From: an uncultured beta proteobacterium
GTDB lineage: Bacteria > Pseudomonadota > Gammaproteobacteria > Burkholderiales > SG8-39
Assembly: GCA_903859155.1 (NCBI GenBank)
Contig: CAIOLO010000019.1
Coordinates: forward strand, 1-64,000
Reading direction: 5' to 3'
DNA length: 64,000 nt
The position numbers and the translations under genes were made by a program. This document shows, piece by piece, positions 37,051 through 56,539 of this stretch (position 1 is its first letter; each line of letters opens with the position of its first letter). The notes under the pieces are model-generated. The model was not told the DNA's origin and did no database searches. It saw nothing but the letters and a program-made list of their open reading frames with translations.

Positions 37051-37881
37051 TCATGCCGCAATCCCCTGTGCAGGATTCGCGCGGTCGTCGCGATACCCGA
37101 TGCGCCGCGACACGCTCTCTGCGGTTTCGCGCAGCACCCGGGCCACCTTGCCCTGGGGTGAGGCATCGAAGCGGCGTGCGTCGCCGATTGCGGTGATGGC
37201 CAGCACCACCCGGCCGCGATGGTCGAACACCGGGGCGCTGATTGCATTGACCCCGGTGAGGAGGTCGCCCGAGACGCTCGCAAGACGCGCCCGCCGCACC
37301 TCGGCCAGCATGGCATCGATTTGCGTGCGCGAGCCCAGGTCGCCCGCCCGGGCGCTGCGCGTGCTTCGTTTGAGTTCCTGGTCGATGAACGGGTTCACCA
37401 TCTCGGGCGCAAGAAACGCGGCAAAGATGCGACCGCTCGCGGAGCTCAATACCGGGACGACCGAGCCCACGCGCACGTTGGTGGCAACCGGATGCGGTGC
37501 TTCTTCCCAGCGCACGAAGACCGGTCCCTGATTGCCCCAGACCGCCAGCACGACGGTCTCGTCCACGCGCTGGCACAGTTCTTCAAGCGCACCGCTGGCC
37601 ACGCGCACGTGATCGAGCCGCGCCAGGCAGGCGAGGGCGAGATCGAGGGCATACGGGCCGAGGTCGTAGCGTCCTCCGGTGCTCTCCTGCTCGACCAGCC
37701 CTTCTCGAGCGAGGCTCACCAGATAGCGGTGCGCCTTGGCCGCCGGCATGCGCGCGCTGGCGGCAAGGTCGCGAAGCATCATGGACTTTCCCGCATCCAC
37801 CAGCACCCGCAGCAATCCCAGCGCGACCTCCGCGGATTGCACGCCGCGCTGGCTTTTTACCGGTCTTTTCGCTTTGACCAT
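37051..37881 (-). CDS. IclR-family transcriptional regulator
   Basis: SAEVALGLLRVLVDAGKSMMLRDLAASARMPAAKAHRYLVSLAREGLVEQ...GRYDLGPYALDL; IclR effector domain. Confidence 0.92.
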   Translation of the reverse strand: MVKAKRPVKSQRGVQSAEVALGLLRVLVDAGKSMMLRDLAASARMPAAKAHRYLVSLAREGLVEQESTGGRYDLGPYALDLALACLARLDHVRVASGALEELCQRVDETVVLAVWGNQGPVFVRWEEAPHPVATNVRVGSVVPVLSSASGRIFAAFLAPEMVNPFIDQELKRSTRSARAGDLGSRTQIDAMLAEVRRARLASVSGDLLTGVNAISAPVFDHRGRVVLAITAIGDARRFDASPQGKVARVLRETAESVSRRIGYRDDRANPAQGIAA

Positions 37882-37973: not shown

Positions 37974-38031
37974 CATCGTCCCGCCGCGGAGTCGCTGCGG
38001 GCGAAAGTTATCCTGACAGGAGGAGAAACCG

Positions 38032-38370
38032 ATGTCGAGAAAAGGCTTGCTGATCGATTACGACCAGTGCTCCGGATGCCATAGCTGCGCCGTGGCCTGC
38101 AAGCAGGAGCACAAGTACCCAGAAGGCAAGTGGGGCATCAAGGTCGAGGAGAAGGTTTTCGTCGATCCCAAGCGGCCCAACAGCAGCGTGCGCATCGACT
38201 ACATTCCGTTTCCGACGGAGTATTGCGATCTGTGCGCCGCACGCGCCAAGCGAGGCGAGCGGCCCGCTTGCGTGAAAGCCTGCCAGTCCTGGTGCATGTA
38301 CCAGGGCACGCTGGCGGAGATGACGGTACTGATGGAAAAAATGCCGCGCGCAGTGCTGTATTCGCGCTGA
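38032..38370 (+). CDS. Small 4Fe-4S ferredoxin-type subunit of molybdopterin oxidoreductase
   Basis: 112 aa; CSGCHSCAVACKQEH and CDLCAARAKRGERPACVKACQSWC; strong SD GACAGGAGGAG. Confidence 0.85.
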   Translation: MSRKGLLIDYDQCSGCHSCAVACKQEHKYPEGKWGIKVEEKVFVDPKRPNSSVRIDYIPFPTEYCDLCAARAKRGERPACVKACQSWCMYQGTLAEMTVLMEKMPRAVLYSR

Positions 38371-38491
38371 TCGACCCGGGGCTTGCGTTGAGCTGACGGG
38401 TGGGCGGGTGTAATGCCCGCACAGATATACACATGGGCCGCTGGCTGGCCGGCACGCGCGAATGATCGCGCAAACGATTGAGGAGCGGGAA

Positions 38492-40735
38492 ATGGACCAA
38501 AAAGTATCGGACGTCAAGGTTCACAAAATGGGCGCCTGGTCGCCGGGACCCGGTTGCCATGGCGGTTGCGGCGTCGAAGTGAGCGTGAAGGACGGCAAGG
38601 TTGTCAACGTGGAGGGGATGGACGACCATCCCTGGTATCAGGGCAGAGCCTGCGCACGCGTGCTCGCCATGACGCAGTACATGTATCACCCGGACCGCCT
38701 GAAATGGCCGCAGAAGCGGGTCGGCAACCGGGGCGAAGACAAGTGGCAGCGCATCAGCTGGGACGAGGCCTTCGACATCTGCGAAAAACGCATGAAGGAA
38801 ATCGCCGAAAAGTCCGGCCCCGAATCGATTATCTTCACCCAGGGCACCGGCCGCGATGTGGGCGGCATGATCTCTTTTCTTGCCTATGCCTACGGCAGCC
38901 CGAACTGGACCATGCTGGGCCTGTCAGGGCACTCGTGCTTCACCCCGCAACTCGCGGCGGGCTATGTCATGCAGGGCGACTTCAGCTTTCCCGACGCGGC
39001 GCAGTTCTTGCCCGATCGCTATGACGATCCGGAATGGAAGGCCCCCGAAATCGCCATCAGCTGGGGGTCGACCCTTAACCGCGGTTGCGTCGATCATTAC
39101 TGGTCGGGGCACTGGTTTCAGGACCTGATGAAACGCGGCACCAAACTGATCGTCATCGATCCGCGCTGCACCTGGGAGGCCACGCGCGCGGTGCTGTGGC
39201 TGCAACCGCGGCCGGGTACCGACGGCGCGCTGGCGCTGGCGTTCCTCAATGTGGTGACCAGCGAAGGGCTGGTCGACAAGGCATTTATCGACAAGTGGTG
39301 TTCGGGCTACGACCAGCTCGCCGAGCGCGTCAAGGAATTTACTCCGGAATGGGCCGAAAAGATTTCCTGGGTACCCAAGGAAAAGATCATCCAGTGCGCC
39401 CGCATGTACGCCAAGGCCAAACCGGCGTCGATCGAGATCGGCCGCCCGGTGGAGGGCAACCCCGAGGGTAATCAGGTGATCATGAACATACACCGCCTGA
39501 TCGCCATCACCGGCAACCTCGACATACCCGGGGGCAATGTGATCTGCCGTCCGGCCTACCAGGTCACCACCTACCCGTACTCGACCGAGGAGGTGATACA
39601 GCTCTATGGTGCCGACCTGCACCGCAAGCTCAGCGAAAAGCGCATCGGCGCGGACAAGTACCCGCTGGTGAAGCAGTTCCGCGCCTGGGCGCAGGAGGAC
39701 TGCATCATCGACCAGATGGAGACGGGCAAACCCTATCCGATCAAGGGGCTGTGGATCCAGGCGAACAACTTCCTTGCCAACCAGGCGCAGGACACCCGCA
39801 GACACTACGAAGCCAGCAAAAACCTCGATTTTGTCTGCGTGGTGGACACCTTCATGACGCCGACGGCGCAACTGCTCGCCGACATCGTGCTGCCGGCCGC
39901 GAGCTTTCCGGAAAAGGATTCGATCTATTGCATCGGCGGGCCGCTCAATGTCATCCACAAGGTGGTGGAGGTGGAGGAGTGCAAGTCCGATTGGGAAATC
40001 AACTTCACCCTGGCCAAGCGCCTGAACCCGAAGGCGGTACCCTGGGGCAGTGTGCGCGAGATGCTCACCGACCGCATGCAGCCCTCGGGATACACCTTCG
40101 AGCAGATGGTCGACAAGGTCTGGGACCTCGCTCCCAAGGGACACAAGTGCGGCAGCCGGCCCTACCGGCGCTTCGAGAAAGGGGAATTGCGCAAGGACGG
40201 CAAGGAGGGCTTCCGCACACCCACCGGCAAAGTCGAGCTGTTCAATACCAGCTACGAGGGTTGGGGCCTTGATCCGCTGCCCTATTACAAGGAGATCACC
40301 CCGCAGGGGCCGATCACCACGCCGGAACTGTACAAGGAATACCCGCTCATCATGATGACCGGGCGGCGTTCTCCGGTGTTGTTCCACAGCGAGCACCGGC
40401 AGATTCCGTGGTTGCGCGAATGCGATCCGGATCCGGTGGTTGAACTCAATCCCGAGACCGCCAAGGAGAAAGGCATTTCCAACGGCGACCTGGTGTGGAT
40501 CGAGGGCACCATGGGTCGGTTCAGACGCAAGGCCAAGGTGACGCCCATTGTTCATCCCAAGATGATCATGGTGCCGCACGCCTGGTGGTTGCCCGAGACC
40601 GAGGGCAAATCGCCCAACAGCTACGGCATCTGGGATCTGAACTGCAACCAGACCATCCCGATGGGGCATCAGGATTCCGCCGGTTTCGGCGGTGGTCCGA
40701 TCTCGGGAATGCTCTGCAAGGTCTACAAGGCCTAG
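38492..40735 (+). CDS. Molybdopterin-dependent oxidoreductase, DMSO reductase superfamily, catalytic subunit
   Basis: HKMGAWSPGPGCHGGCGVEVSVKDGKVVNVEGMDDHPWYQGRACAR, LIVIDPRCTWEAT, GNLDIPGGN, MMTGRRSPVLFHSEHRQIPWLREC. Confidence 0.9.
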   Translation: MDQKVSDVKVHKMGAWSPGPGCHGGCGVEVSVKDGKVVNVEGMDDHPWYQGRACARVLAMTQYMYHPDRLKWPQKRVGNRGEDKWQRISWDEAFDICEKRMKEIAEKSGPESIIFTQGTGRDVGGMISFLAYAYGSPNWTMLGLSGHSCFTPQLAAGYVMQGDFSFPDAAQFLPDRYDDPEWKAPEIAISWGSTLNRGCVDHYWSGHWFQDLMKRGTKLIVIDPRCTWEATRAVLWLQPRPGTDGALALAFLNVVTSEGLVDKAFIDKWCSGYDQLAERVKEFTPEWAEKISWVPKEKIIQCARMYAKAKPASIEIGRPVEGNPEGNQVIMNIHRLIAITGNLDIPGGNVICRPAYQVTTYPYSTEEVIQLYGADLHRKLSEKRIGADKYPLVKQFRAWAQEDCIIDQMETGKPYPIKGLWIQANNFLANQAQDTRRHYEASKNLDFVCVVDTFMTPTAQLLADIVLPAASFPEKDSIYCIGGPLNVIHKVVEVEECKSDWEINFTLAKRLNPKAVPWGSVREMLTDRMQPSGYTFEQMVDKVWDLAPKGHKCGSRPYRRFEKGELRKDGKEGFRTPTGKVELFNTSYEGWGLDPLPYYKEITPQGPITTPELYKEYPLIMMTGRRSPVLFHSEHRQIPWLRECDPDPVVELNPETAKEKGISNGDLVWIEGTMGRFRRKAKVTPIVHPKMIMVPHAWWLPETEGKSPNSYGIWDLNCNQTIPMGHQDSAGFGGGPISGMLCKVYKA

Positions 40736-41689: not shown

Positions 41690-41703
41690 TTGATCTGCAT
41701 CAA
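41690..41703. promoter_or_regulatory. FNR/ANR-type palindrome TTGATCTGCATCAA
   Basis: Exact TTGAT-N4-ATCAA upstream of the tctC-ubiD cluster. Confidence 0.6.
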
Positions 41704-41911
41704 TACATTTTTCATATTTCTGCATCATGGTGTCGGGCGCGCAAACAGCTCTTCCAAGGGGGAAACCGTGGATACATGGCCTTTCGCAATGAATCTCTTT
41801 TCATTTGCCGGCGCGGGACTAGCCATGTATTTATTTTTCCGACCGTCTTGCATCGGGCGCCTGATATGCGGTGCCCGAGCGTGTCAAAGCTCGCGCAAGT
41901 CGCTGGTAATA

Positions 41912-42907
41912 ATGACCGCCCGCGGGAATATGGGGTTCGTAATCGGAGTTCTCGCCCTCCTGGCGTCGTTCGTATTGCCGCTCGCAGCCACAGCCCAGCA
42001 ACAGCCCTGGCCAAGTCGCGCGGTGCGTATTGTCTCGACCAGCCCGCCTGGAGGATCGGTTGATCTGTTTGCCCGAATCGTCGCGGAGGAATGCAGCCGA
42101 AGTTTCGGCCAGGCCTTCGTGGTGGAGGCGCGTCCGGGGGCCAACGGCAACATCGGTGTGGAACTGGTGCTGCGCTCTCCTTCTGACGGGGGCATGTTCT
42201 TCGTGGCACCGGCCGGGCCGTTCAGCATCAACGCGACCATGATGAGTTCGATGTCCTTTAATCCGGAAACGGATATCGCTCCGGTCGCCATGCTCGGGGT
42301 GTCACCTATGCTGCTGGTGATTCACCCTTCGGTGCCGGCAAAAGATCTGCGCGAATTGCTCGAGTGGATGCGCGCCCAGCAAGGTAAAGCAAACTACGCC
42401 TCTCAGGCCATCGCTTCGACTGGTCATCTCGCCATGGAGTTGTTCAAATCGCTCTCCGGAGTCGAAGCGACGCATATTCCCTACAAGGGTTCGGCGGCGG
42501 CGGCGACCGCGGACCTCATTGCCGGGCGCGTCGCCCTGAGCTTCGTCAACACCAGCACCACACTGCCATATGTTCGCAACGGGCAACTGCGGGCGATTGC
42601 TGTCGCGGAAAGCAGGCGCATCGCGGCAGCCTCGGACGTTCCGACAGTCGCGGAATCGGGTGTGCCGGGATTCGAGGCGACCTCCTGGTACGGGATAGGT
42701 GCCCGCGCCGGGACCCCGCGTGACATTGTCCAGCGCATGAGCGATGCCGCCGCGCGCGGCTCAAGCCGGCCGGAGGTTCTCGCGCGGCTTTCCGAGATTG
42801 GCATCGAGCCGCGGCCGATGGGCCCCGATCAGTTTGCCCGGTTTGTGCGCAGCGAATCCATTAAGTGGGGGGACATCATTCGCCGCACCGGAGCGAAAGC
42901 GGATTGA
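41912..42907 (+). CDS. TctC/Bug family substrate-binding protein
   Basis: MTARGNMGFVIGVLALLASFVLPLAATAQQQPWPSRAVRIVSTSPPGGSVDLFARIVAEE; AESGVPGFEATSW. Confidence 0.88.
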   Translation: MTARGNMGFVIGVLALLASFVLPLAATAQQQPWPSRAVRIVSTSPPGGSVDLFARIVAEECSRSFGQAFVVEARPGANGNIGVELVLRSPSDGGMFFVAPAGPFSINATMMSSMSFNPETDIAPVAMLGVSPMLLVIHPSVPAKDLRELLEWMRAQQGKANYASQAIASTGHLAMELFKSLSGVEATHIPYKGSAAAATADLIAGRVALSFVNTSTTLPYVRNGQLRAIAVAESRRIAAASDVPTVAESGVPGFEATSWYGIGARAGTPRDIVQRMSDAAARGSSRPEVLARLSEIGIEPRPMGPDQFARFVRSESIKWGDIIRRTGAKAD

Positions 42908-42977
42908 GGAAAGCGCGCTTCTCGATCCAGTTTGCCATATCCGGATTTGAACAATTCAATATCAACAGGAAAACCCA

Positions 42978-44396
42978 ATGCCTTATGCTGATTTGCGGGA
43001 ATTTATGGCCAAGCTCGAAGCCGTGGGCAAGCTCCACCGTATCAAAACACAGGTGGACAAAGACTGGGAGATCTCTGCGGTGTCGCGCATAGCCTTCGAA
43101 TCCATTCCGGAATCCAAGCGGCCCGCCGTATTATTCGAGAATGTGAAGGGCTTTGATATCCCGGTGGTGCTGGGCGTCAACGGTGCCTCACGTGCGGTCT
43201 ATTGTCTGGCGCTGGAATGCGGGATCGGCGACGTGCAAAATAAATGGAGCAACGCCGAACTCGATCCTATTCCCCCGGTTCTGGTACCCGGTGGTCCGGT
43301 GCAGGAGAATATTTTCAAAGGGAACGACATCGATGTCACCCGCCTGCCGATGCCGACCTGGACGGTCGGCGAAGACCCTTCGCCATATATTACCGCCGGT
43401 TGCGTCGTCACCAAGGACCCGGAGTCAGGCGTGCGTAACGTGGGCACCTACCGCCTTCAGGTGAAGGGACCGAGAAAACTTGGCCTGTTCATCAATTACC
43501 TGCAGGGAGGCAGGGATCACATCGAAAAGAACAACAAAGCGGGCAAGCCGACGCATGTGGCGATCGTCCAGGGCACCGACCCGGTGATCGGATTGGTTTC
43601 GGTAAGCAGAGTGCAGGCGGACATGGACGAATACGCGGTCGCCGGAAGGCTGCGGGGCGAGGCGGTGCAACTGGTGCGCTGCCAGACCGTCGATCTGGAG
43701 GTGCCTGCGACCGCCGAGATCGTGATCGAAGGCATCGTCAGGGCAAACGAACTGGAAGACGAAGGCCCGTTCGGTGAATACACGGGTTACATGGGCCCGG
43801 CGGCAATGTCTTATGTGGTCGACATCACTTGTATCACGCACCGCAACAAGCCGATTCTCCAGGCCTTTCTTTCGCAGATGCCGCCCAGCGAATCCAGCTG
43901 CATCCGCGGCATCGGCAGGGAATCGACGCTGTACAAGCACCTGGTGGAAGACCTCAGGCTGCCAGTTCGCGACGTGCATCTGCTGGAGCACGGCGGCGCC
44001 GCGGCCTATCTGGTGGTTTCGATCAAGAAGACGCATCCGGCACAGCCGCGCACCGTCATGTTCGCCTGCTGGGCCTATGCGCCGCAGTTCGGGAAAATCA
44101 CCGTCATCGTCGATGACGACATTGACGTGCGCGACCCTTATGACGTCAACTGGGCTTTGTCCTTCCGGGTCCAGCCGGAAAACGACGCGTTTATCATTTC
44201 GGGCACCGCGGCGGTGTCCCTGGATCCCTCGCAAGCGGCAGCCGATGTGCGCCAGGAGGAATCCACGCGCCGCCTGTCCTCCAAGATAGGCATCGATGCG
44301 ACACGCAAGCACAAGTTTCCGCCGATCGCGCTCCCGCCGAAAGAGCACCTGGCGCGGGTGCGCCAGGATTGGAAAAAGTACGGATTCCATGACTAG
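42978..44396 (+). CDS. UbiD-family decarboxylase (prenylated-FMN dependent family)
   Basis: MPYADLREFMAKLEAVGKLHRIKTQVDKDWEISAVSRIAFE...PAVLFENVKGFDIPVVLG...EDEGPFGEYTGYMGP...FGKITVIVDDDIDVRDPYDVNWALSFRVQPENDAFI. Confidence 0.92.
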   Translation: MPYADLREFMAKLEAVGKLHRIKTQVDKDWEISAVSRIAFESIPESKRPAVLFENVKGFDIPVVLGVNGASRAVYCLALECGIGDVQNKWSNAELDPIPPVLVPGGPVQENIFKGNDIDVTRLPMPTWTVGEDPSPYITAGCVVTKDPESGVRNVGTYRLQVKGPRKLGLFINYLQGGRDHIEKNNKAGKPTHVAIVQGTDPVIGLVSVSRVQADMDEYAVAGRLRGEAVQLVRCQTVDLEVPATAEIVIEGIVRANELEDEGPFGEYTGYMGPAAMSYVVDITCITHRNKPILQAFLSQMPPSESSCIRGIGRESTLYKHLVEDLRLPVRDVHLLEHGGAAAYLVVSIKKTHPAQPRTVMFACWAYAPQFGKITVIVDDDIDVRDPYDVNWALSFRVQPENDAFIISGTAAVSLDPSQAAADVRQEESTRRLSSKIGIDATRKHKFPPIALPPKEHLARVRQDWKKYGFHD

Positions 44397-44456
44397 CTTT
44401 TACCGGGGCAAAACGAGCAACGCAGCCGATTCCCGCCACTCCAGGAGACACAGTTC

Positions 44457-46268
44457 ATGACCGACATCGATCCCATCACCCTTTCCACGGTCTGGCATTC
44501 GTTTCAGACGCTGGTGAGGGAAATGCGCCACATGGTTACGCGCACCTCGCAAAGCTACCTGATGTCGCAACTGAAGGATGTGTCAGTAGGGCTGTGGCTT
44601 GCGGACGGATCGACGGTCGCGATGCCGCAGGGCCTCTTGTGCCAGTTCATGGGTACCAAGTTTGCGATCCAGGCCGTCAAGGAGCAATTCGGTGACGACC
44701 TGCATCCGGGCGATGTCATCCTCACCAATGATCCCTACAAGGGTATGACCGTGCACCTGCCGGACTGGGGGTTCATCCGCCCGATCTTTTTCGAGGGGGA
44801 ACTGCTGTTTTTCACCCTGGTGCGCGGCCACCAGCAGGACACCGGCGGGTCATTTCCCGGGGGTTATTTCCCGAACTCCATCGATATTCACGCCGAAGGC
44901 CTGTGCATTCCGCCCACCAAGGTGTTCGAGAACGACAAGGAACGCACGGATGTCATGAAGCTTATCTGGAACAACGTGCGCTGGCCCGAGGCGGTGCGAG
45001 TGGACAACTACGCGATGGTGGCCACCACCCGCTTTGCCGAGAAACGGGTGCATGAGGTGCTGCGGCGATATGGAAAAGAGACAGTGATGGCCTGCATCAA
45101 GGAGATGCTGGACCGCTCGGAGCGCGCCGTGCGGGCAGAGATTTCCGCCATCCCCGATGGCACCTATTCGGGCCAGGCTGCGACCGATGACGATGGCACG
45201 ATCCTCGATGAACCGGTCTGGGTGCGCGTCGATATCACCGTCAAGGGCGACGCCATTACCGTGGACTTCTCTCGCAGCGATGCGCAGCGCAAGGGCTTCG
45301 TGAACTGCCCATTTGCGGCGTCGTACGCGATTGCAGTGGGGTCGATGATGCTGCTGTTCGACCCCGCTCTGGCCGATTACCACAACGAGGGATCATTACG
45401 GCCCATCACCGTTATCACCCCGCCGGGCAGTGTGGTCCACCCCTTGTACCCGGCCACCGTGGGTGCCGCGCCGGTCAATGTCGGCCACCAGATCGCCACC
45501 TCCGTGCACGATGCGCTGGCCAAGGCGAGACCCAACCGGGCCATGGCCGCTTGGGGCAAGCGGCGCGGCGATTACGTGTCTTCGATCGATCCGCGCAGCG
45601 GCCGGCCCTATGTGCGCACCACCTTCGACTATGACGGATCCGCCGGCGCCGTGACCGGCCACGACGGACCGACCGGGCCGCTGTCGATAGGCTCGCTTGC
45701 GACCGTTATGCGCAGCAATGCCGAGGAAATGGAAATCCGCTTTCCGTGGCGCTTGCTGAAGTGGGAGGCGGCCACAGACCTGATGGGTGCGGGTCGCTGG
45801 CGCGGCGGTGGTGGCATCGAATGGCGCGCCACCAACGAAGGCAGCGACGGCCGCATGGCGACCGGCAGTTCCGATGGCGACATGACACCCGGGGACGGCA
45901 TCCAGGGCGGTTATCCTTCACCTTTTTCGCGCACCTTCGTATTGCGCGATGGCAAGCCGATTCGGGTCAAGCCGCATCGCATGGTCGAGATCAAAACAGG
46001 CGATACGGTGGTGAAAATCAGCGGCGGCGGCGGCGGCGTGGGCAACCCCACCGATCGGTCGCCCGAACTGGTGGCGCTGGACGTGAAAAACGAGATGGTC
46101 TCAGTGGACAGCGCGCGCAAAGTTTATGGCGTGGCCGTCGATCCGGTCAGTTTCGCCGTAAATGAAACCGAAACCAAACGGCTGCGCGCGCAGCCCCCCG
46201 GCGCATGGGAAGTCAGTATCGACGAGCAGAAGCTCACCGTCGAAGTGATTCCGGCACATTCGCATTGA
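44457..46268 (+). CDS. Hydantoinase B/oxoprolinase family protein (HyuB; acetone/acetophenone carboxylase-type subunit family)
   Basis: DIDPITLSTVWHSFQTLVREMRHMVTRTSQSYLM, HPGDVILTNDPYKGMTVHLPDWGFIRPIF, ISGGGGGVGNPTDRSPELVALDVKNEMVS. Confidence 0.92.
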   Translation: MTDIDPITLSTVWHSFQTLVREMRHMVTRTSQSYLMSQLKDVSVGLWLADGSTVAMPQGLLCQFMGTKFAIQAVKEQFGDDLHPGDVILTNDPYKGMTVHLPDWGFIRPIFFEGELLFFTLVRGHQQDTGGSFPGGYFPNSIDIHAEGLCIPPTKVFENDKERTDVMKLIWNNVRWPEAVRVDNYAMVATTRFAEKRVHEVLRRYGKETVMACIKEMLDRSERAVRAEISAIPDGTYSGQAATDDDGTILDEPVWVRVDITVKGDAITVDFSRSDAQRKGFVNCPFAASYAIAVGSMMLLFDPALADYHNEGSLRPITVITPPGSVVHPLYPATVGAAPVNVGHQIATSVHDALAKARPNRAMAAWGKRRGDYVSSIDPRSGRPYVRTTFDYDGSAGAVTGHDGPTGPLSIGSLATVMRSNAEEMEIRFPWRLLKWEAATDLMGAGRWRGGGGIEWRATNEGSDGRMATGSSDGDMTPGDGIQGGYPSPFSRTFVLRDGKPIRVKPHRMVEIKTGDTVVKISGGGGGVGNPTDRSPELVALDVKNEMVSVDSARKVYGVAVDPVSFAVNETETKRLRAQPPGAWEVSIDEQKLTVEVIPAHSH

Positions 46269-46303
46269 GCGATACAGCAGTTATTTATCAGGGAGGAGAT
46301 ACC

Positions 46304-47329
46304 TTGAAAAACTTGGGCGTCGCTGATCGCGTGCTGGCCATGCTGCGCATCCGCCGGTTTGAAGAGCAGTGCATCCGGCTGTCCGCGGAAAAGAAGCTGG
46401 TCGGGCATTACCACGTGTACATCGGCCAGGAAGCGACCGCTGTGGCCGCTTGCACCCTGCTGGATAAAGACGATTTTATTTTCAGCACCTGGCGCAATCA
46501 CGGGCACCTACTCGCACGCGGCGCGGACCCCCGCCGCATGATGGCGGAGATCCTCGGCAAGTCCGGTGGCTATGCGGGCGGCCGCAGCGGCACACTGCAT
46601 CTTTCCGTCGCGGCGCTCGGCGCTCCGGCCACCTCAGCGCTGGTGGGCGGGAACCTGCCCCTAGCTAACGGCGCCGCGCTGGCGTGCAAGCAGCGCGGCT
46701 CGGGAATGGTGGTGAATTTCTTCGGCGACGCCGGCATGGAAGAAGGCGCATTTTACGAGGCAATGATCCTGGCCTCTGTGTGGAAGGTGCCCATTCTGTT
46801 CCTGTGCGAAAACAACAGCATTCCGCCGGCGCTGCGCAAGCGAGGCCAATTCACTTCGTCCACGTTGCCGGCAAAACAGCTGGTGGATGTGCCGAAATCG
46901 TTGAATATTGTCACCGAGATCGTCGATGGCGCCGACGCCGATGCGCTGGTCGAATGTTTCACCCGACTCACGGCCGAAATACGCAGTGGCGCGGGGCCGC
47001 GTTTTGTCGAGGTGCGCTGCACCCGCTGGCCGGGTAGTTTTCCCTTGTTTCCAGAACTGCCCGATGGCGAGTGGCAGGTGGCATGGGCGTTCGGCCAGAA
47101 ACCCGACCGCCAGGACCTGGCGGTGTGGCTCGAGCACAGCGATCCGCTGCTGCTGCACATACGCAAGGCGGTGGCCTCGGGAGAACTGGATCGGAGCCAG
47201 GTGGAAGCCATAGACGCGCAAGTGCGGGCGGAAATGGCTGCAGCGGTGCGTTTTGCGCTGGACAGTCCCTACCCGGACCCGCAGGAAGCGTATCGGCACG
47301 TTTTGGCACAAGGAGGACAGACCCGATGA
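46304..47329 (+). CDS. Dehydrogenase E1 component alpha subunit-like protein (TPP family)
   Basis: LAMLRIRRFEEQCIRLSAEKKLVGHYHVYIGQEATAVAACTLL, TWRNHGHLLARGADPRRMMAEI, NFFGDAGMEEGAFYEAMILASVWKVPILFLCENNSI; TTG start after GGGAGGAGATACC. Confidence 0.88.
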   Translation: MKNLGVADRVLAMLRIRRFEEQCIRLSAEKKLVGHYHVYIGQEATAVAACTLLDKDDFIFSTWRNHGHLLARGADPRRMMAEILGKSGGYAGGRSGTLHLSVAALGAPATSALVGGNLPLANGAALACKQRGSGMVVNFFGDAGMEEGAFYEAMILASVWKVPILFLCENNSIPPALRKRGQFTSSTLPAKQLVDVPKSLNIVTEIVDGADADALVECFTRLTAEIRSGAGPRFVEVRCTRWPGSFPLFPELPDGEWQVAWAFGQKPDRQDLAVWLEHSDPLLLHIRKAVASGELDRSQVEAIDAQVRAEMAAAVRFALDSPYPDPQEAYRHVLAQGGQTR

Positions 47330-48306
47330 AGATCACTTTTGCCGAAGGTCTCGCCAGGGCGATTCACGAGTGCCTGGCTGCCGACGAGCGGGTCATGCTC
47401 ATCGGCAGCGGTTTCATGGGCCTGAACCCTGTGGCACAGAAAACCATGGAACCGGTGCTGAAGGATTTTGCCGCACGCATTTCCGTCACGCCGATCTCGG
47501 AACTGGGGCTTGCCGGCGCCGGCATCGGCGCGGCGGTGGCGGGGATGCGGCCGTTGGTGGATCTCTCCACGGGAAGCTTCATCTTTCAGGCGTTCCCTCA
47601 AGTGGTCAACGAGGCCGCCAATATCCATTACATGAGTGGCGGCCAGACCACCGTTCCGGTGACCTTCTATTCACTGGCGGGAATGCGCGGGAGCGGCGCG
47701 GCCCAGCACTCGCATCGTCCCCAGGCGATGCTCGGCCAAGTGCCGGGGCTGCAGATCCTGATGCCCGGCGGCGCCGAGGATGCCTATTACCTGATGAAGT
47801 GGGCGCTGCGCGAAAGCCGGAACCCGACGGTGTTCATCAGTCATGGACTACTGCTCGGAGAAACCGCAGAACTGGACGCCGATGCGCCGATGATTCCGGT
47901 GGGCAGGGCCCGCATCCGCCGCGACGGCGGTGACGTGAGCCTCATCGCCAATTCCATCACGGTGCCACGCGCGCTGGCGGCAGCCGGCATCCTTGAAAAG
48001 GAGCACGGGATCTCCGCGGAAGTCGTGGATCTGCGCAGCATCGCTCCGTTGGACCGGGAAACGGTGTTGCGCTCGGTGGCCAAGACCGGGCGGGCAGTGA
48101 TTGCCGATGAATGCCATCGCAGCTTCGGCGTCGCCGCGGAAATAGCCGCGACACTGGCGGAGGAGGGACTGGCGTCGCTGAAGGCTCCGGTGTGTCGGGT
48201 GAACACCCCGGACGTGCCGATTCCCTTCAGCACGCAGCTAGAGGCAGAGTTGACAGTGACTGCCGACAAGATCGTCGCCGGCGCGTTGAGGACGTTGGGC
48301 CGTTGA
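47326..48306 (+). CDS. Dehydrogenase E1 component beta subunit-like protein
   Basis: MKITFAEGLARAIHECLAADERVMLIG...SELGLAGAGIGAAVAGMRPLVDLSTGSFIFQAFPQVVNEAANIHYMSGGQ; ATGA overlap. Confidence 0.9.
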   Translation: MKITFAEGLARAIHECLAADERVMLIGSGFMGLNPVAQKTMEPVLKDFAARISVTPISELGLAGAGIGAAVAGMRPLVDLSTGSFIFQAFPQVVNEAANIHYMSGGQTTVPVTFYSLAGMRGSGAAQHSHRPQAMLGQVPGLQILMPGGAEDAYYLMKWALRESRNPTVFISHGLLLGETAELDADAPMIPVGRARIRRDGGDVSLIANSITVPRALAAAGILEKEHGISAEVVDLRSIAPLDRETVLRSVAKTGRAVIADECHRSFGVAAEIAATLAEEGLASLKAPVCRVNTPDVPIPFSTQLEAELTVTADKIVAGALRTLGR

Positions 48307-48406
48307 ACCGTGCCGGATAGCCGGGCAGCGGAACTCGATGCCCCGGCGCTAACCGCAGCGAGCCGGATACACGCAACCAGCATGCAGATTTAACGGAGAA
48401 AGACAG

Positions 48407-50470
48407 ATGAAGCAGTTGACCATAGACGTGGGCGGTACCTTCACCGATTGCCTGGTTCTGGAGGAATCGGGACAGTTGCAGCGCTTCAAGGCATCCACCA
48501 CGCCGGACGATCCGACCCAGGGGTTTTTCGCCTCCGTGGGCAAGGCGGCGGCGCATTTTGGCCAGAGCCTGAACGGATTCCTGAGCGAGGTGGAGCAGAT
48601 TGTTCACGGCACCACCCTCGGCACCAATACCCTGATCACCGAACGCGGTGCCAAGGTCGGCATGATCACCACCAAGGGGTTTCGCGATTCTGTCGAGATG
48701 CGCCGCGGCATCAAGAATCTTCACGGCTCGATGTTCGACGTGTTCATCCCGCCCTACAAGCCGCTGGTGCCGCGCTACCTGCGGCTGGGCGTGGAAGAAC
48801 GAACCCTGTACACCGGTGAACTGCTCACGCCGCTGGACGAGCAGGAACTGCGCACCGCGGCGAAAAAACTGCTCGATGACGGTTGCACCGCCATCGCGGT
48901 CTGCTTCCTGCACTCCTACGCCAACGGCGCGAATGAACTCCAGGCCAAGCGCCTGGTGCAGCAGATGGCACCGCAGGTGTATGTCACCGCCTCGCACGAG
49001 ATACTGCCTGTCTGGCGCGAGTTCGAGCGTTTCTCCACGGCCGTGGTGAGCGCCTATATCGGCCCGGTGCTGACGCGCTATGCGAGCCGGCTCCAGTCGG
49101 GGCTTGCCGATCACGGGTTTCACGGCCGCTTGTTGATGATGCTCGCCAATGGCCTGGTTCAGGTGGTGGACGAATGTGTCGACAGGGCGGTGTACCTGCT
49201 CAATTCGGGACCCGCCGCAGCGCCTTCCGCGGCCACCTATCTGGGCGCGTTGCATGGCAGGACCAACTTGCTGTCGGTGGACATGGGGGGCACCAGTTTC
49301 GATGTGTGCGTCATCAAGGACGGCGAAATTCCGACGACCTCCGAATCCTGGGTCGGCGAGCACCGGGTGGCCATCAAGATGGTGGACGTACCCACCGTGG
49401 GGGCGGGCGGCGGGTCGCTCGCCTGGGTTGACTCATTGGGACTGTTGCGGGTCGGGCCGCAGAGCGCCGGCGCCGATCCCGGTCCCGCAGCCTACGGCAA
49501 GGGCGAGCAGGCCGCGGTCACCGACGCCGATCTGGTGCTGGGTTACATACCGGCAGATTATTTTCTGGGCGGGGACATCAAACTCGATGCGGCGCGCGCG
49601 CATCAGGCAGTGGCGGCGGTGGGAGCCAAGCTCAAGATGAGCGTGGAGAATTCAGCGCAGGCGATCTACACCACCATCAATACGGTGATGGCCAATCTGG
49701 TCACGGAGGTATGTACCAAGCAGGGCCATGACGTGCGCGACTTCACGCTGGTGGCCGGCGGCGGCGCGGGGGGCATACACGCGGCGTCGATCGCGCGGCA
49801 GTTGTCCATCCCGATGGTGATCGTGCCGCGAGTGGCGGCGCTGATGAGCGCTTTTGGCATGTTCGCCAAGGACCTCGGTTTCGAATATGCACGCTCGTGC
49901 TTCCGCAGCCAGGACCGGCTGGATTTTGCCGAGGTGACCGGCCTGTACGCGGACATGCGCGCCCAGGCGCTGCGTGATTTTGCGCGCATCGGATTTACCG
50001 AATCGCAATTGTCCTTCCAGCCCACGGTCGAGATGCGCTACGCCGACCAGTTTCACGAAGTGGAAATCGACATGCCCTCGGAAACGCTGAATGCGCAATC
50101 CATGCAGGAACTGCTGCGGATATTCCACGCACGCTACGAAAAAATGTACACCTACTCGATGAACTGGCGCCCGGTGGAGTTCCTGACCTTCCGGCTCAAG
50201 GTCACCGCGCCACGGCGACCGGTGCAGATGGCCGCAAGCCAGAGCACCTCGGCCGGCGTGGAGACGGCGCGGCGCGGTTCCCGCTCCTGCCTGTTCCAGG
50301 GCGGCAGCCTGCGCGTGGACACGCCGGTGTACGACTGGGACCGCATGGAACCGGGCCACAAGGTGGCCGGGCCGGCGCTTGTCGATGACAAGACGACCAC
50401 CGTGCTGGTGCCGCCGGGTTTCAACTGCGAAGTCGACCCCTACCGCAATCTGGTCCTGCTGGCGACTTGA
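48407..50470 (+). CDS. Hydantoinase/oxoprolinase family protein (HyuA)
   Basis: IDVGGTFTDCLVLEESGQLQRFKASTTPDDP, VHGTTLGTNTLITERGAKVGMITTKGF, SVDMGGTSFDVCVIKDGEI, VPTVGAGGGSLAWVD. Confidence 0.93.
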   Translation: MKQLTIDVGGTFTDCLVLEESGQLQRFKASTTPDDPTQGFFASVGKAAAHFGQSLNGFLSEVEQIVHGTTLGTNTLITERGAKVGMITTKGFRDSVEMRRGIKNLHGSMFDVFIPPYKPLVPRYLRLGVEERTLYTGELLTPLDEQELRTAAKKLLDDGCTAIAVCFLHSYANGANELQAKRLVQQMAPQVYVTASHEILPVWREFERFSTAVVSAYIGPVLTRYASRLQSGLADHGFHGRLLMMLANGLVQVVDECVDRAVYLLNSGPAAAPSAATYLGALHGRTNLLSVDMGGTSFDVCVIKDGEIPTTSESWVGEHRVAIKMVDVPTVGAGGGSLAWVDSLGLLRVGPQSAGADPGPAAYGKGEQAAVTDADLVLGYIPADYFLGGDIKLDAARAHQAVAAVGAKLKMSVENSAQAIYTTINTVMANLVTEVCTKQGHDVRDFTLVAGGGAGGIHAASIARQLSIPMVIVPRVAALMSAFGMFAKDLGFEYARSCFRSQDRLDFAEVTGLYADMRAQALRDFARIGFTESQLSFQPTVEMRYADQFHEVEIDMPSETLNAQSMQELLRIFHARYEKMYTYSMNWRPVEFLTFRLKVTAPRRPVQMAASQSTSAGVETARRGSRSCLFQGGSLRVDTPVYDWDRMEPGHKVAGPALVDDKTTTVLVPPGFNCEVDPYRNLVLLAT

Positions 50471-50524: not shown

Positions 50525-51514
50525 ATGGACAGGAAAGCAATTCCCGGATTGCGGATGCTCAAGGCATGCGCCGCTGCGTTTGTGTTCTCTCTGGGCTGTG
50601 CCGCAAATCATTCGATGGCGCAGGATTTTCCCTCCAGGCCGATCAGGTTGCTGGTGGGATTTCCGCCGGGGGGCAATGCGGATGTCGGGGCGCGCATCGT
50701 CGCCCAGAAGATGTCCGACGGATTGGGCCGCCAGGTGCTGGTGGAAAATCGCGCCGGCGCCGGCGGTGTGGTGGCGAATTCCACCGTCGCGAAGTCCCCG
50801 CCGGACGGCTACACGCTGCTGCTGGTGATCGGGGGATTTGTCACGCAGGCGGCGACCATGAAGAAGCTGCCCTACGATTCGATACGGGATTTTTCGCCGA
50901 TCTCACTGTTGATGACCTACCCGATCGTCATCGCAGTGAGCGCGGATTCCCAGTACCGCACGCTCGCCGATCTGATCGGCTACGCCAAGAGCAATCCGTC
51001 CAAGCTCAACTACGGCGCGCCGATCGGCACGCTGTATCACCTGGTTGCGGAGATGTTCAATTCGATGGCGGGCGTCGAACTGACATTTGTTCCCTATCGC
51101 GGCGGCGCGGAACCGCTGGCTGAGGTGATCGCCGGACGCATGAACGTGGCATTCGAGGCGATCACCACCGCTTCGCCGCAAATCCAGGGCGGCAGGCTGC
51201 GCGCCCTCGCCGTCACCTCGGCGCAACCGTCGCCCTCGCTGCCGGGCGTGGCGACCGCCACCCAGACGTTGCCAGGCTTCGAGACCATTTCGTTCCTCGC
51301 GATCTCCGCGCCGCCGGGTGTGCCGCGCCCGATCGTCAACCGGCTGAATGCGGAGGTGCGTCGGGTACTGGCCTTGCCGGATGTGGCCCAGCGCTTTGCC
51401 GAATGGGGCGGACAAACCGCGCCCACCAGCCCGGAGGAGATGCAGCGTTTCATGGAGGCGGAGATCGCCAAGTGGACCCGGGTGGTCCAGCAGCGAAACA
51501 TCGTGCTCGATTAG
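50525..51514 (+). CDS. TctC/Bug family substrate-binding protein
   Basis: DFPSRPIRLLVGFPPGGNADVGARIVAQKMSDGLGRQVLVENRAGAGG. Confidence 0.92.
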   Translation: MDRKAIPGLRMLKACAAAFVFSLGCAANHSMAQDFPSRPIRLLVGFPPGGNADVGARIVAQKMSDGLGRQVLVENRAGAGGVVANSTVAKSPPDGYTLLLVIGGFVTQAATMKKLPYDSIRDFSPISLLMTYPIVIAVSADSQYRTLADLIGYAKSNPSKLNYGAPIGTLYHLVAEMFNSMAGVELTFVPYRGGAEPLAEVIAGRMNVAFEAITTASPQIQGGRLRALAVTSAQPSPSLPGVATATQTLPGFETISFLAISAPPGVPRPIVNRLNAEVRRVLALPDVAQRFAEWGGQTAPTSPEEMQRFMEAEIAKWTRVVQQRNIVLD

Positions 51515-51625: not shown

Positions 51626-52609
51626 ATGACAATCATCACCAGGTGCGCTGCAGTCGCACTCGCCGGCTTTGCGCTGACGCTGTCGGTGCCGCCGGCGTAT
51701 GCCCAGGGTTACCCCTCCAAGATGGTGCGCATCACCTCGCCGTTTCCCTCAGGATTGACGCCGGATGTGGTGATCAGGGTGGTGGCCGACAAGCTTGCGC
51801 GCGCCTGGGGACAGCAGGTGCTGATCGATGCGCGCCCTGGAGCAAACGGCTTCATTGCCATCGGCGCGGTCAAGAAGGCCGCACCCGACGGGTATGACCT
51901 GCTGCTGGTGTCCAACGCGCAGCTCACGCTCAATCCGCATCTCATCAAGTCGATTCCCTATGACCCGGAAGTCGATTTCGTGCCGGTGACCATGGTGTAC
52001 CGGACGGCATTCCTGGTGGCGGTGTCGGCTGCGGGACCGTATCGTTCGATGCCCGAGCTTGTCGCGGCGGCACGCAACAATCCCGATCGCATCACCTATA
52101 GCTCGCCGTTTGTCGGCAGCGCGCCTCACCTTGGCGGCGCGATGCTGGCGTATCTCACGGGGACGAGAATGGTTCCGGTGCATTTCAAGGAAGCGGCGCA
52201 GATGTTCACCTCGATAGTCAATGGCGACGTCGCCTTCATCGTCTCCACATCGGGGTCGGCGGCCTCGCTGGTCAAGGCCGGGCGCATCCGCTATCTCGCC
52301 GTGGCCGGACCCTCGCGCCTGGAGTCCGACCCCGACGTGCCCACGAGCAGGGAGGTTGGCGGGCCGGCGGATTTCGAAATCGATGCCTGGGGGGGCATAC
52401 TAGCGCCGCGAGGCACGCCACCCGAACTGGCGCGCCGCATCGCGGCCGACATCGCCAGGGCGATGGCCGAGCCCGATGTGCGCGAGCGCTACCGCGCCGT
52501 CGGTTTCGAGGCGAAGTCAAGCACCCCTGCGGAAATGGGCGATCTGACCAGAACCGAATTGCGCCGTTACGGCGACATGGTCAAGCGCATCGGGATCACG
52601 CCGGAATAG
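51626..52609 (+). CDS. TctC/Bug family substrate-binding protein
   Basis: GYPSKMVRITSPFPSGLTPDVVIRVVADKLARAWGQQVLIDARPGANGFIAIG. Confidence 0.9.
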   Translation: MTIITRCAAVALAGFALTLSVPPAYAQGYPSKMVRITSPFPSGLTPDVVIRVVADKLARAWGQQVLIDARPGANGFIAIGAVKKAAPDGYDLLLVSNAQLTLNPHLIKSIPYDPEVDFVPVTMVYRTAFLVAVSAAGPYRSMPELVAAARNNPDRITYSSPFVGSAPHLGGAMLAYLTGTRMVPVHFKEAAQMFTSIVNGDVAFIVSTSGSAASLVKAGRIRYLAVAGPSRLESDPDVPTSREVGGPADFEIDAWGGILAPRGTPPELARRIAADIARAMAEPDVRERYRAVGFEAKSSTPAEMGDLTRTELRRYGDMVKRIGITPE

Positions 52610-52621: not shown

Positions 52622-53707
52622 ATGGAACGCGAACAAGTAAAAGACGGGGAACCGGATCAGCTCTCGGGCTACGAGAAGATGATCCGCCATTACCAGACCT
52701 GGTCGGACCAGATGAAAAACGGCAAGCTCCTGATTCGCGGCGACGAGCGCGAATACCAGGTGTCACGCCAGGGATACCTGAAGTACTACCTCAATCCGCT
52801 GGTCACCGACACCGCGATCAGCAGCTGGGCGGTGTTCGAGCAGCTCATCAAGCGCCAGTCGGGCAGGCACAAGCATCAGGGCGGGGTGATCATCTACGTG
52901 CTCGAGGGCGAGGGCTATACCGAGACCAACGGCGAAGTGCTGGAATGGCAGTCGGGCGACCTGCTGCTCCTGCCGATTCAGCCCGGAGGATGCAACCATC
53001 AGCACTGGAACAAGGACGCCTCGAAGGGTTGCCGCTGGGTCGCGTTTCGCGACCTGATGGTGGCGCGCTACATTGCCAACGCGATCGACCAGGTGTCCGA
53101 GATGCCGGACATGCGCGGTGCGGCGGCCAGCGGACCCGAGGGTCACCGGCGCGGGGAATGGAGGGCCACGGTGGGCGTGGAGCAGGTGCCGCTGGTGTCG
53201 AATCCGGACGAACTGGCGAATGTGAACCTGATGGACCGGCTGATCAAATTGCGTGATCTGCAGCGGCAGCGCCTGGCGCAGGCGACGTTTCTGATCCGTG
53301 GCGCGGAGTTGCCCTGGGAGCTCAATGCGCACGGCCGGATGCAGTGGTATCTGCACCCGTGCATTGCCTACACGGCGGTGCAGACCAATCTTTTTTATCG
53401 CCAGGAAATTGCACCGGGCAGCCGCAGCGGCGTGCAGCGCCACGCCGGCGATGTGATCTTCTACATGCTCGAGGGCGAGGGCTACACCGAACTGGATGGG
53501 GTGCGTCATGTCTGGAAGGCGGGCGATGTCATGACCTTGCCGATTTTTCCCACTGGCGTGGTTTATCGGCACGTAAACACCGGCGCCGTGCCGGTGCGGC
53601 TCATCTGCATGGAGCGCAATCTGGTTCACACCACGGGCGTGGACCGGCAGTCCGGATTCGAGCAATTGCAGCCCTGCCCCGAGTACCGTGAGGCGCAGGG
53701 GGGCTGA
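52622..53707 (+). CDS. Bicupin protein (gentisate 1,2-dioxygenase-like fold)
   Basis: Two cupin motifs: HKHQGGVIIYVLEGEGYTETNGEVLEWQSGDLLLLP and QRHAGDVIFYMLEGEGYTELDGVRHVWKAGDVMTLPIFPTGVVYRH. Confidence 0.82.
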   Translation: MEREQVKDGEPDQLSGYEKMIRHYQTWSDQMKNGKLLIRGDEREYQVSRQGYLKYYLNPLVTDTAISSWAVFEQLIKRQSGRHKHQGGVIIYVLEGEGYTETNGEVLEWQSGDLLLLPIQPGGCNHQHWNKDASKGCRWVAFRDLMVARYIANAIDQVSEMPDMRGAAASGPEGHRRGEWRATVGVEQVPLVSNPDELANVNLMDRLIKLRDLQRQRLAQATFLIRGAELPWELNAHGRMQWYLHPCIAYTAVQTNLFYRQEIAPGSRSGVQRHAGDVIFYMLEGEGYTELDGVRHVWKAGDVMTLPIFPTGVVYRHVNTGAVPVRLICMERNLVHTTGVDRQSGFEQLQPCPEYREAQGG

Positions 53708-53786
53708 GCGTCAGAGCCTGACTTCGCTGACACCCGAGCGGCGCGCAAGCCCGATTGAATCAAGGCAGGATTCTTGGAGGAGAGCC

Positions 53787-54797
53787 ATGATGGGTAAGGC
53801 AAGGAAATGCAATGCGGCACGCCGGTCGCTTCCAATTGCGGCTGTGCTCGCCGGACTGGCGCTCGGGGGCCTGTTTCCCCAGGCGGCTTGTGCCCAGTAT
53901 CCGACACGGGCGGTCAGGGTGGTGGTGACCGTATCCCCTGGCGGTGCGCCGGACACGGTTGCACGCGTGCTCGGCGACCGCCTCTCGCCGCTGCTGGGCC
54001 AGCCGGTGGTGATCGAGAACCGTGCCGGGTCGAACGGCAACATCGCCATGGAACTGGTCGCGAAATCCGCGCCTGACGGTCATACCCTGGTGATGTGCGC
54101 CGACAGCATGATCGTCATCAATCCGCACATGTACGCGAAAATGCCGCTTGACGTGCTCAAGGACCTCGCGCCGGTTGCTCCGGTGGCCGAGCAAAGCAAT
54201 TTCTTCCTGTCGGTGCATCCTTCGCTGCAGGTGAAGAACTTTCAGGAGTTTCTCGAGTTCGCGAAAACCGCCAATCCTCCCATGGCCTACGCCTCAGCCG
54301 GCAACGGCAGCCAGCACCAGATGGCCATGGAAATGCTCAAGTCGCGCGCCGGCATCAACCTTATACATGTGCCCTACAAGGGTGGCGCCCCGGCCACCGC
54401 GGCGACATTGGCGGGGGAGGTGTTGGCGATGTTTTCCGCGGCCTCGAGCGTGCCGCAGATCCAGGCCGGAAAATTGCGGGGCCTCGCGGTGACCGGACGC
54501 AAGCGTTCGCTGCTGCTTCCCGACCTGCCGATGGTCGGGGAGTTCTATCCGGGCTATGAGTTGTCCACCTGGATCGCCCTGTTTTCACCCGCCGGCGTGC
54601 CTGACGCAACGCTGATGCGCCTGCGCAGCGAGATCGGCAAGGCACTGGCGGTACCGGATGTCGCCAAGCGATTCACAGCGGCCGGCGGTCTCGATCCTGC
54701 CAACGCAACCCCGCAGGAATTCGCCGAGCGTATCCGCGCTGATTACGAGAAATACGCCAAGCTGGTGAAACTGATCGGGGCGACGGTCGACAATTGA
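53787..54797 (+). CDS. TctC/Bug family substrate-binding protein
   Basis: AQYPTRAVRVVVTVSPGGAPDTVARVLGDRLSPLLGQPVVIENRAGSNGNIAMELVAKSAPDGHTLVM; start trimmed to the SD-preceded ATG. Confidence 0.92.
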   Translation: MMGKARKCNAARRSLPIAAVLAGLALGGLFPQAACAQYPTRAVRVVVTVSPGGAPDTVARVLGDRLSPLLGQPVVIENRAGSNGNIAMELVAKSAPDGHTLVMCADSMIVINPHMYAKMPLDVLKDLAPVAPVAEQSNFFLSVHPSLQVKNFQEFLEFAKTANPPMAYASAGNGSQHQMAMEMLKSRAGINLIHVPYKGGAPATAATLAGEVLAMFSAASSVPQIQAGKLRGLAVTGRKRSLLLPDLPMVGEFYPGYELSTWIALFSPAGVPDATLMRLRSEIGKALAVPDVAKRFTAAGGLDPANATPQEFAERIRADYEKYAKLVKLIGATVDN

Positions 54798-54883
54798 CCC
54801 GGTACGGTTTCGGCGGCTGCATGTCGCCGCCGACGTGCAGTGAGCCATATCAACCCTGGCGACCCGCTAACGGAGGAGCGTCC

Positions 54884-56539
54884 ATGCTGCAGCACGATTT
54901 CGAATACCGTTTTCGCGGGCCGCTTTCCGAGCCCGAAGAACTGGGCGGGCGCGCGCCGCAATATCGGCGCAGCGTGGACCAGGGCGCGATCATCGAGCAC
55001 GACCTCGCCGTGACCATGCGCGACGGGGTGAAGCTCTACGTCGATCTGTTTCGGCCGGCTGATGAAAAACCGGCGGCGCCCCTCATTGCCTGGGGGCCTT
55101 ACGGCAAGCACAGCCCGACAAATTACGCCAGGCAGTTTCCGGCATCCGGCGTGGATACTGCCAGGCTCTCGCGGTACACGGCCTTCGAGGCTCCCGACCC
55201 GATCTACTGGGTGTCGCGCGGCTATGCGGTAATCAATGTGGACACGCGCGGCATGTGGTTTTCCGAAGGAACGGCGACGTTCCTTTCGCCCGAAGAGGCG
55301 CTCGACCAGTACGACATGATCGAATGGGCGGGCACGCAGGCCTGGAGCAACGCCAGGGTGGGGCTCGCCGGTGTTTCTTATCTTGCCAGTTCGCAATACC
55401 AGGTTGCGGCGCTCAATCCGCCCCACCTTGCGGCTATCAATCCCTGGGAAGGCTGGAGCGATTTTTATCGGGAGGTCGCCCGCCACGGCGGTATTCCCGA
55501 AACTGAATTCTGGGGCTATCTGCCAACCCGCTGGGGGCGCAGCAAGACCCGCATCGAAGACCTGCGCAAAGAAACCGAAGAGCACCCGTTCCATGACGCC
55601 TTCTGGGCCTCCAAGGTCGCCGATTTCTCGAAGATCACGGTTCCCTCCTATGTGGTCGCGAGCTGGAGCGACCAGGGTCTGCACACGCGCGGCACGCTCG
55701 AGGCTTACAAGAAGATCGGCGCGGCGCACAAGTGGCTCGAAGTGCATGGCCGAAAAAAATGGGCTTACTACTATGAACCGCAGAGCGTGCAGCGGCAGCA
55801 GGCATTTTTCGACCATTTCCTCAAAGGAATGCCGAGCGAGATCGCGACCTGGCCGAAAGTGCGCCTGGAGGTGCGGCAGAAATATTATGCTGGTGTCACG
55901 CGCGATGAACGGGAATGGCCGCTCGAGCGCACCCGCTACACCAGGCTTTATCTCGACGCCGGGTCGGCCGCGATGCGGCGCGAACCGGCGGAGGTTGAGA
56001 CCTCCTGCCGCTACGCCTCCGGGGAAAAGGATTCGCGCGCCGTGTTTGATTTCCGCTTCCCGCGGCAAGCCGATCTCATCGGCCACACCAAGCTCAGGGT
56101 CTGGATGGCAACGACCGACTCGGACGACATGGATATCTTCGTCGGGCTGCACAAGCTCGACGCTTCGGGTCATGTCATGCCGTTTCCGTATTTCGCGCAG
56201 TTCGAGGACGGACCGGTCGCGCTGGGATGGCTGCGCGCGTCACATCGAGAGCTCGATGCAGAGAAATCCACCGACTACCAGCCGGTGCTGGCGCATCGCC
56301 GCGAGCACAAACTCTCCCCTGGCGAGATCGTGCCGCTCGATATAGAAATCTGGCCCTCCGGTACGCGCTTTGAAGCAGGCGAATCGTTGCGACTGGTGGT
56401 GCAGGGCGGTGACATCTGTCCGCATCCGCGACCTTGTGTGCAGGACCTGCACGAGCAGACGGTGAACCGCGGCGAACACCGCCTGTTCACGGGAGGGCGC
56501 TACGATTCCCACCTGCTGGTGCCGGTGGTCGAGGATTGA
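54884..56539 (+). CDS. CocE/NonD-family (X-Pro dipeptidyl-peptidase S15-like) hydrolase
   Basis: AVTMRDGVKLYVDLFRPADEKPAAPLIAWGPYGKHS, NVDTRGMWFSEG, VGLAGVSYLASSQYQVAALNPPHLAAINPWEGW. Confidence 0.9.
   Translation: MLQHDFEYRFRGPLSEPEELGGRAPQYRRSVDQGAIIEHDLAVTMRDGVKLYVDLFRPADEKPAAPLIAWGPYGKHSPTNYARQFPASGVDTARLSRYTAFEAPDPIYWVSRGYAVINVDTRGMWFSEGTATFLSPEEALDQYDMIEWAGTQAWSNARVGLAGVSYLASSQYQVAALNPPHLAAINPWEGWSDFYREVARHGGIPETEFWGYLPTRWGRSKTRIEDLRKETEEHPFHDAFWASKVADFSKITVPSYVVASWSDQGLHTRGTLEAYKKIGAAHKWLEVHGRKKWAYYYEPQSVQRQQAFFDHFLKGMPSEIATWPKVRLEVRQKYYAGVTRDEREWPLERTRYTRLYLDAGSAAMRREPAEVETSCRYASGEKDSRAVFDFRFPRQADLIGHTKLRVWMATTDSDDMDIFVGLHKLDASGHVMPFPYFAQFEDGPVALGWLRASHRELDAEKSTDYQPVLAHRREHKLSPGEIVPLDIEIWPSGTRFEAGESLRLVVQGGDICPHPRPCVQDLHEQTVNRGEHRLFTGGRYDSHLLVPVVED

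Follow-up and report, generated by a model that had tools for sequence, protein, structure and literature searches.

In the two-subunit E1 component of 2-oxoacid dehydrogenase complexes, one histidine of the alpha subunit (H271alpha of Geobacillus E1p, corresponding to H407 of the Escherichia coli enzyme) is key in loop organisation and in the reductive acetylation of lipoate, and the H271A mutant, which resembles I206A, is active in the 2,6-dichlorophenolindophenol (DCPIP) assay of enamine formation, the first half-reaction, while the whole complex performs poorly (PMC2663715). Caprolactamase CapAB, hydantoinase HyuAB and 5-oxoprolinase (6yra) likewise consist of two subunits, with ATP motifs in subunit A and an Asp-His-Asp-His metal site in subunit B, and these metal residues are essential in caprolactamase (PMC8453981); the adjacency and order of hydAB genes are described as conserved (PMC5214803). 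Here we describe a gene cluster that combines both protein families in an uncultured beta proteobacterium (Burkholderiales, SG8-39; GenBank assembly GCA_903859155.1). The window, the whole stretch of DNA analysed, comprises positions 1 to 64,000 of contig CAIOLO010000019.1 (205 kb, hereafter C19). The cluster is best classed as the combination of a hydrolase-branch HyuAB with an E1-type thiamine diphosphate (TPP) enzyme that lacks two hallmarks of a dehydrogenase-complex E1, the histidine for lipoate acylation and E2 and E3 components encoded with it. Its core genes, including a UbiD-family enzyme dependent on prenylated flavin mononucleotide (prFMN), are as follows.

41690..42907, + strand: TctC/Bug periplasmic solute receptor (PF03401, 202 bits)
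42978..44396, + strand: UbiD-family prFMN decarboxylase (TIGR00148, 321.5 bits; best solved relative 6h6v)
44457..46268, + strand: HyuB, metal-binding subunit, hydantoinase/oxoprolinase family (PF02538, 451 bits)
46304..47329, + strand (open reading frame (ORF) 46205-47329): E1alpha, WPG-E1 clade (PF00676; alignment to 1ni4)
47326..48306, + strand: E1beta (PF02779, PF02780)
48407..50470, + strand: HyuA, ATP-binding subunit, hydantoinase/oxoprolinase family (PF01968, PF05378, PF19278)

Pfam and NCBIfam scans verified all families of the cluster and placed every gene and strand where the initial annotation had them, in the single-strand order tctC, UbiD, HyuB, E1alpha, E1beta, HyuA and further tctC genes. 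The separation of HyuA from HyuB by the E1 pair was thereby confirmed. It distinguishes the window from CapAB, HyuAB and 5-oxoprolinase, is unusual because hydAB order is described as conserved, and is found again at one other locus (L143). The window UbiD is a full-length family match (TIGR00148 321.5 bits against a cut-off of 244.85), the prFMN synthase UbiX is present in the genome, and the best solved match, 6h6v, is the furan dicarboxylate decarboxylase HmfF.

An E1 clade without the lipoate-acylation histidine

By family match and fold, the window pair belongs with the E1 proteins of 2-oxoacid dehydrogenase complexes (pyruvate dehydrogenase (PDH)/acetoin type, TIGR03182-like), sharing their two-subunit make-up, the TPP-Mg motif GD..NN and the catalytic Glu (PISE) and His (QHS) of E1beta, which align with E59 and H128 in Geobacillus. 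The predicted model of E1alpha (mean predicted local distance difference test (pLDDT) score 87.6) matches human PDH E1alpha (1ni4_A) with a Z score of 35.4 and a root mean square deviation of 2.7 over 310 structurally aligned residues, across which identity is 29%. What sets the window E1 apart is a serine, Ser249, at the position of human His263 in the sequence alignment (numbered on the translation of 46292-47329, the query used in searches), together with an RWPG motif and the lack of a nearby E2, E3 or lipoyl partner; an ordinary E1alpha (L227) places its GH at the same position as human His263. Human residue 263 we take to be the equivalent of Geobacillus 271, an equivalence that comes from the conserved GH(S/T) loop, as established family knowledge, rather than from our computations.

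The substitution characterizes a whole clade. Among 101 aligned E1alpha sequences, the 28 ordinary ones all have His in this column, whereas the 73 members of the clade termed WPG-E1, whose RWPG motif has W or another aromatic residue plus an invariant G, carry Ser (41), Asn (26) or Gly (5), and His only once (72/73 without it). On the tree, for which a smaller-set version was also computed, the split between WPG-E1 and ordinary E1alpha is a single change with 100% support in the Shimodaira-Hasegawa-like approximate likelihood ratio test (SH-aLRT). The single clade member with His at the acylation position (L208, 9648-10679; WPGHS) sits on a long branch. WPG-E1 proteins have thus retained the residues for decarboxylation and lost the histidine for lipoate acylation and, because the H271A mutant behaves in just this way, the clade looks like a natural separation of the two activities. 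The same histidine is lost in the E. coli H407A and Geobacillus H271A laboratory mutants (PMC2663715), but in WPG-E1 the loss is natural, clade-wide, fixed and accompanied by loss of E2. A natural E1 clade therefore seems to bear the change by which decarboxylation and lipoate acylation are uncoupled in laboratory mutants, a long-studied catalytic switch becomes testable in enzymes evolved without E2, and the automatic label 'pyruvate dehydrogenase E1' is probably wrong for this clade.

The absence of E2 and E3, which the initial annotation had noted for the window, extends to all of C19: a profile search of the genome contigs found no E2, E3 or lipoyl domain on it. Elsewhere, a same-strand E2 lies within 6.5 kb of WPG-E1 at 2 of 43 loci of a first set (L141 and L199, each next to an ordinary E1 pair) and at none of 30 further loci, drawn from 148 genomes that were sampled independently (the class of G851), giving 2/73 in total; E2 is thus absent at nearly all WPG-E1 loci, in several phyla. 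About half of the ordinary E1 loci have an E2 nearby on the same strand. The earlier claim of a TPP E1 pair without E2 is sharpened by the residue loss in its E1alpha.

Several loci show further arrangements. Tandem WPG-type and ordinary-type E1alpha-beta pairs without E2 occur at L203, L210, L211, L259, L260 and L271-L275, mostly beside an NMT1-like receptor and several with a Zn-alcohol dehydrogenase or aldo-keto reductase. Occurrence of WPG-E1 in cultured plasmid-bearing taxa was considered and rejected, as the five E1 loci checked among 391 matching plasmid records all retain the histidine. On Sphingobium sp. MI1205 plasmid pMI2 (L293), no E2 accompanies the E1alpha-beta pair; a lipoyl-domain protein encoded on its own comes next, beside an AMP-binding protein.

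Recurrence of the E1-HyuAB neighbourhood

In its 5.26 Mb (172 contigs; completeness 98.7%), the genome holds 23 HyuB and 20 UbiD matches but a single UbiX (on C7). With paralogy this dense, adjacency alone is weak evidence, and the recurrence of the E1-HyuAB neighbourhood therefore became the question. With a limit of E <= 1e-60, the order sample (399 genomes) and the phylum sample (398 genomes) each yielded relatives of the window E1alpha in a single genome, this genome itself, whereas the family yielded them in 9 of its 98 genomes. At E <= 1e-45, a limit that also takes in ordinary E1s, they were found in 29 of the 34 genomes carrying a relative of the window UbiD, including metagenome-assembled genomes (MAGs) of Deltaproteobacteria, Tectomicrobia and Bacillota.

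Neighbours on the flanks of these loci were named by comparison with the window proteins and with Pfam. Defining direct adjacency as HyuA or HyuB at most 400 bp from the E1 pair, stop to stop, HyuAB adjoins WPG-E1 at 17 of 73 loci (nine genomes, four arrangements), as against none of 28 ordinary E1 loci. The order HyuB-E1alpha-E1beta-HyuA recurs in another genus of the family (L143), without an adjoining UbiD; HyuB-HyuA-E1alpha-E1beta is found at L142 and L190, HyuA-HyuB-E1alpha-E1beta at L151 and L155 (also, within the limits of their contigs, at L153 and L156), E1alpha-E1beta-HyuA-HyuB at L146, L147, L149, L152, L194 and L196, and E1alpha-E1beta-HyuB-UbiD-HyuA at L200. Mapped on the tree, the adjacency requires 8 changes, of which at least 5 are forced by the starred branches, as gains or losses. 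Because the neighbourhood recurs elsewhere, chance is an unlikely source of it, and the proposal of an uncharacterised catabolic cluster with Bug/TctC receptors gains support from the recurrence of E1-HyuAB adjacency in nine genomes.

The exact order UbiD-HyuB-E1alpha-E1beta-HyuA, by contrast, was found only in the window genome among the samples searched, relatives differing in order. Of the initial interpretation, then, the split, the missing E2 and E3 and the catabolic cluster stand, whereas the idea of a conserved five-gene unit had to be abandoned. Relatives of the window UbiD with at least 69% identity often directly precede HyuA-HyuB, and among the closer UbiD relatives this arrangement, lacking an E1 pair, is common. 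In Deltaproteobacteria MAGs, UbiD with HyuA/HyuB directly downstream and no intervening E1 pair was seen at L040, L043, L045, L046, L047, L059, L063, L065, L069 and L102. The open literature searched yielded nothing on a UbiD-Hyu-E1 cluster, on a hydroxybenzoquinone-cleaving E1 or on HyuAB with TPP enzymes.

Proposed pathway and alternative explanations

We put at about 50% the probability that the cluster combines a lipoate-independent TPP decarboxylase/lyase, an ATP-dependent HyuAB hydrolase and a UbiD decarboxylase acting on an imported carboxylate, which may be an aromatic or an oxo acid, as first proposed. In the order of steps that we infer, an organic anion would be imported by the Bug/TctC receptors of this putative catabolic operon, and UbiD would decarboxylate (or carboxylate) an acid that is conjugated or heteroaromatic. 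HyuAB would then use ATP to activate a carbonyl, most likely that of a ring amide, and hydrolyse it in a lactam-type reaction, yielding a 2-oxo acid or similar alpha-dicarbonyl, which E1alpha-beta would attack with TPP and split. Because the clade has neither the E1alpha acylation histidine nor an E2, the TPP-bound enamine would leave as an aldehyde after protonation, or go to a small acceptor, instead of being passed to lipoyl-E2 and coenzyme A. A Zn-alcohol dehydrogenase, an aldo-keto reductase or a second TPP enzyme adjoins several WPG-E1s, which fits aldehyde or oxo-acid chemistry without proving it, and the same can be said of the allantoinase/hydantoinase-like cyclic amidohydrolase added to the cluster at L190. 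Read in this way, the cluster points to an unstudied breakdown of small organic acids, and the repeated E1-HyuAB partnership is a starting point for finding an undescribed catabolic route in bacteria of groundwater and sediment.

Several results weigh against this reading. In ordinary E1 this histidine has a part in shaping the active-site loops as well, so its absence could reflect a change of substrate and not just independence from lipoate. The adjacency counts differ with a Fisher p of 0.003, a value that ignores the kinship of the sequences, and the bearer genomes are rich in HyuB (23 matches here), which raises chance adjacency, for which about 2% per locus is an assumption. Finally, none of the 30 WPG-E1 loci of the independent class-wide sample has HyuAB near within the stretch read; these E1s adjoin an ordinary-type E1 pair, an alcohol dehydrogenase, an aldo-keto reductase or NMT1-like receptors. 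HyuAB is therefore rejected as an obligatory partner: WPG-E1 is the wider entity, and HyuAB one recurrent partner.

A different role for the same enzymes, possible but unlikely, is that E1alpha-beta uses TPP to cleave a ring or an acyloin within an aromatic pathway, with UbiD working on the aromatic acid at an earlier step and HyuAB opening a cyclic intermediate further along. UbiD adjoins WPG-E1 or HyuAB in the window and at L149, L152, L200 and L159, in keeping with an aromatic route, as is a molybdopterin enzyme encoded 950 bp upstream (38462-40735, + strand), for which acetylene hydratase is the best solved relative (281 bits). Yet the similarity of this enzyme to pyrogallol hydroxytransferase is weak (46 bits), for which reason its identification as a resorcinol hydroxylase/transhydroxylase was rejected, and no ring hydroxylase of known type was identified in the operon. 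Cleavage of hydroxybenzoquinone by BqdLM and the cyclohexane-1,2-dione hydrolase reaction are precedents for such chemistry.

It is rather improbable that HyuAB is instead an ATP-dependent carboxylase of the acetone/acetophenone carboxylase type, with E1 acting on the resulting keto acid. Such carboxylases belong to the same superfamily, and UbiD can also run as a carboxylase. However, the best solved relatives of the window HyuA and HyuB are the caprolactamase pair 6yra A/B (444 and 248 bits), exceeding the carboxylase subunits (at most 282 and 107 bits); the scores for ApcC (307 bits) and ApcD (116 bits) lie far under the NCBIfam cut-offs of 1500; and there is no room between the window genes for a small gamma subunit gene. 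Identity as an acetone/acetophenone carboxylase was accordingly rejected, as was equivalence to caprolactamase CapAB (622 and 310 bits against an NCBIfam cut-off of 1000). HyuA retains the ATP motifs DVGGTFTD, DMGGT and GADPGP, and HyuB the Asp-His-Asp-His metal site aligned with the CapB ligands (D in QLKDVS, H and D in HLPD, H in RGHQQ). Judged by these sequence features, the window HyuAB is of the two-subunit hydrolase type in the hydantoinase/oxoprolinase branch, in line with the lactam-type hydrolysis proposed above.

It is very improbable that the E1 pair serves an ordinary 2-oxoacid dehydrogenase and works with an E2 encoded at a distance, the E2 gene having been relocated. The genome does encode E2 domains, three in all (C24, C82 and C102), as well as E3-type domains (C82, C102 and C130) and lipoyl/biotinyl domains (C24, C82, C102, C130 and C156), and the E2 on C24 stands beside an ordinary E1 pair; but that E2 thereby has an E1 pair of its own, and both the histidine loss in 72 of 73 clade members and the lack of E2 at nearly all WPG-E1 loci speak against a relocated partner. 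It is also highly unlikely that WPG-E1 and HyuAB constitute a single functional system, with the carbonyl activation that HyuAB drives by ATP feeding straight into the TPP enamine of E1, an ATP-coupled carboligation or cleavage that to our knowledge has not been described for E1 or for the HyuAB family. Least probable of all is a chance neighbourhood of E1, UbiD and HyuAB from different pathways which, for all the HyuB and UbiD paralogues of this genome and the uniqueness of its five-gene order, is disfavoured by the direct E1-HyuAB adjacency at 17 loci and its absence at ordinary E1s.

Operon structure and flanking genes

The successive gaps across the core, from UbiD to the TctC gene that follows HyuA, are 60, about 35, -4, 100 and 54 bp; junctions so short or overlapping suggest that the core genes are transcribed as a single unit. 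A promoter search upstream of tctC found no sigma-70-like site above chance. The tctC ORF at 41690 begins at TTG, and the secreted protein probably starts near 41910. E1alpha likely starts at the TTG at 46304, with the putative ribosome-binding site GGGAGGAGA in front; the start of E1beta, with the ribosome-binding site AAGGAGGA, overlaps the end of E1alpha as ATGA. Downstream of HyuA follow:

50525..51514, + strand: TctC/Bug receptor (PF03401, 222 bits)
51626..52609, + strand: TctC/Bug receptor (PF03401, 182 bits)
52622..53707, + strand: bicupin, distantly gentisate-dioxygenase-like, of uncertain pathway membership (PF07883, two cupin stretches)
53688..54797, + strand: TctC/Bug receptor, overlapping the bicupin (PF03401, 226 bits)
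54794..56539, + strand: S15/CocE-type hydrolase, of uncertain membership (PF02129, PF08530)

The start of the S15/CocE-type hydrolase overlaps the stop of the preceding TctC gene by 4 bp. On the other side of the cluster, a 117-amino-acid ORF without a Pfam match (38017-38367, + strand) lies upstream of the molybdopterin enzyme, and relatives of the two are again found together at L228, close to UbiD genes on that contig. Further upstream, on the minus strand, a CTP-dependent riboflavin kinase domain is fused to a haloacid dehalogenase (HAD) hydrolase (35961-37316), an unusual fusion near a prFMN-dependent enzyme.

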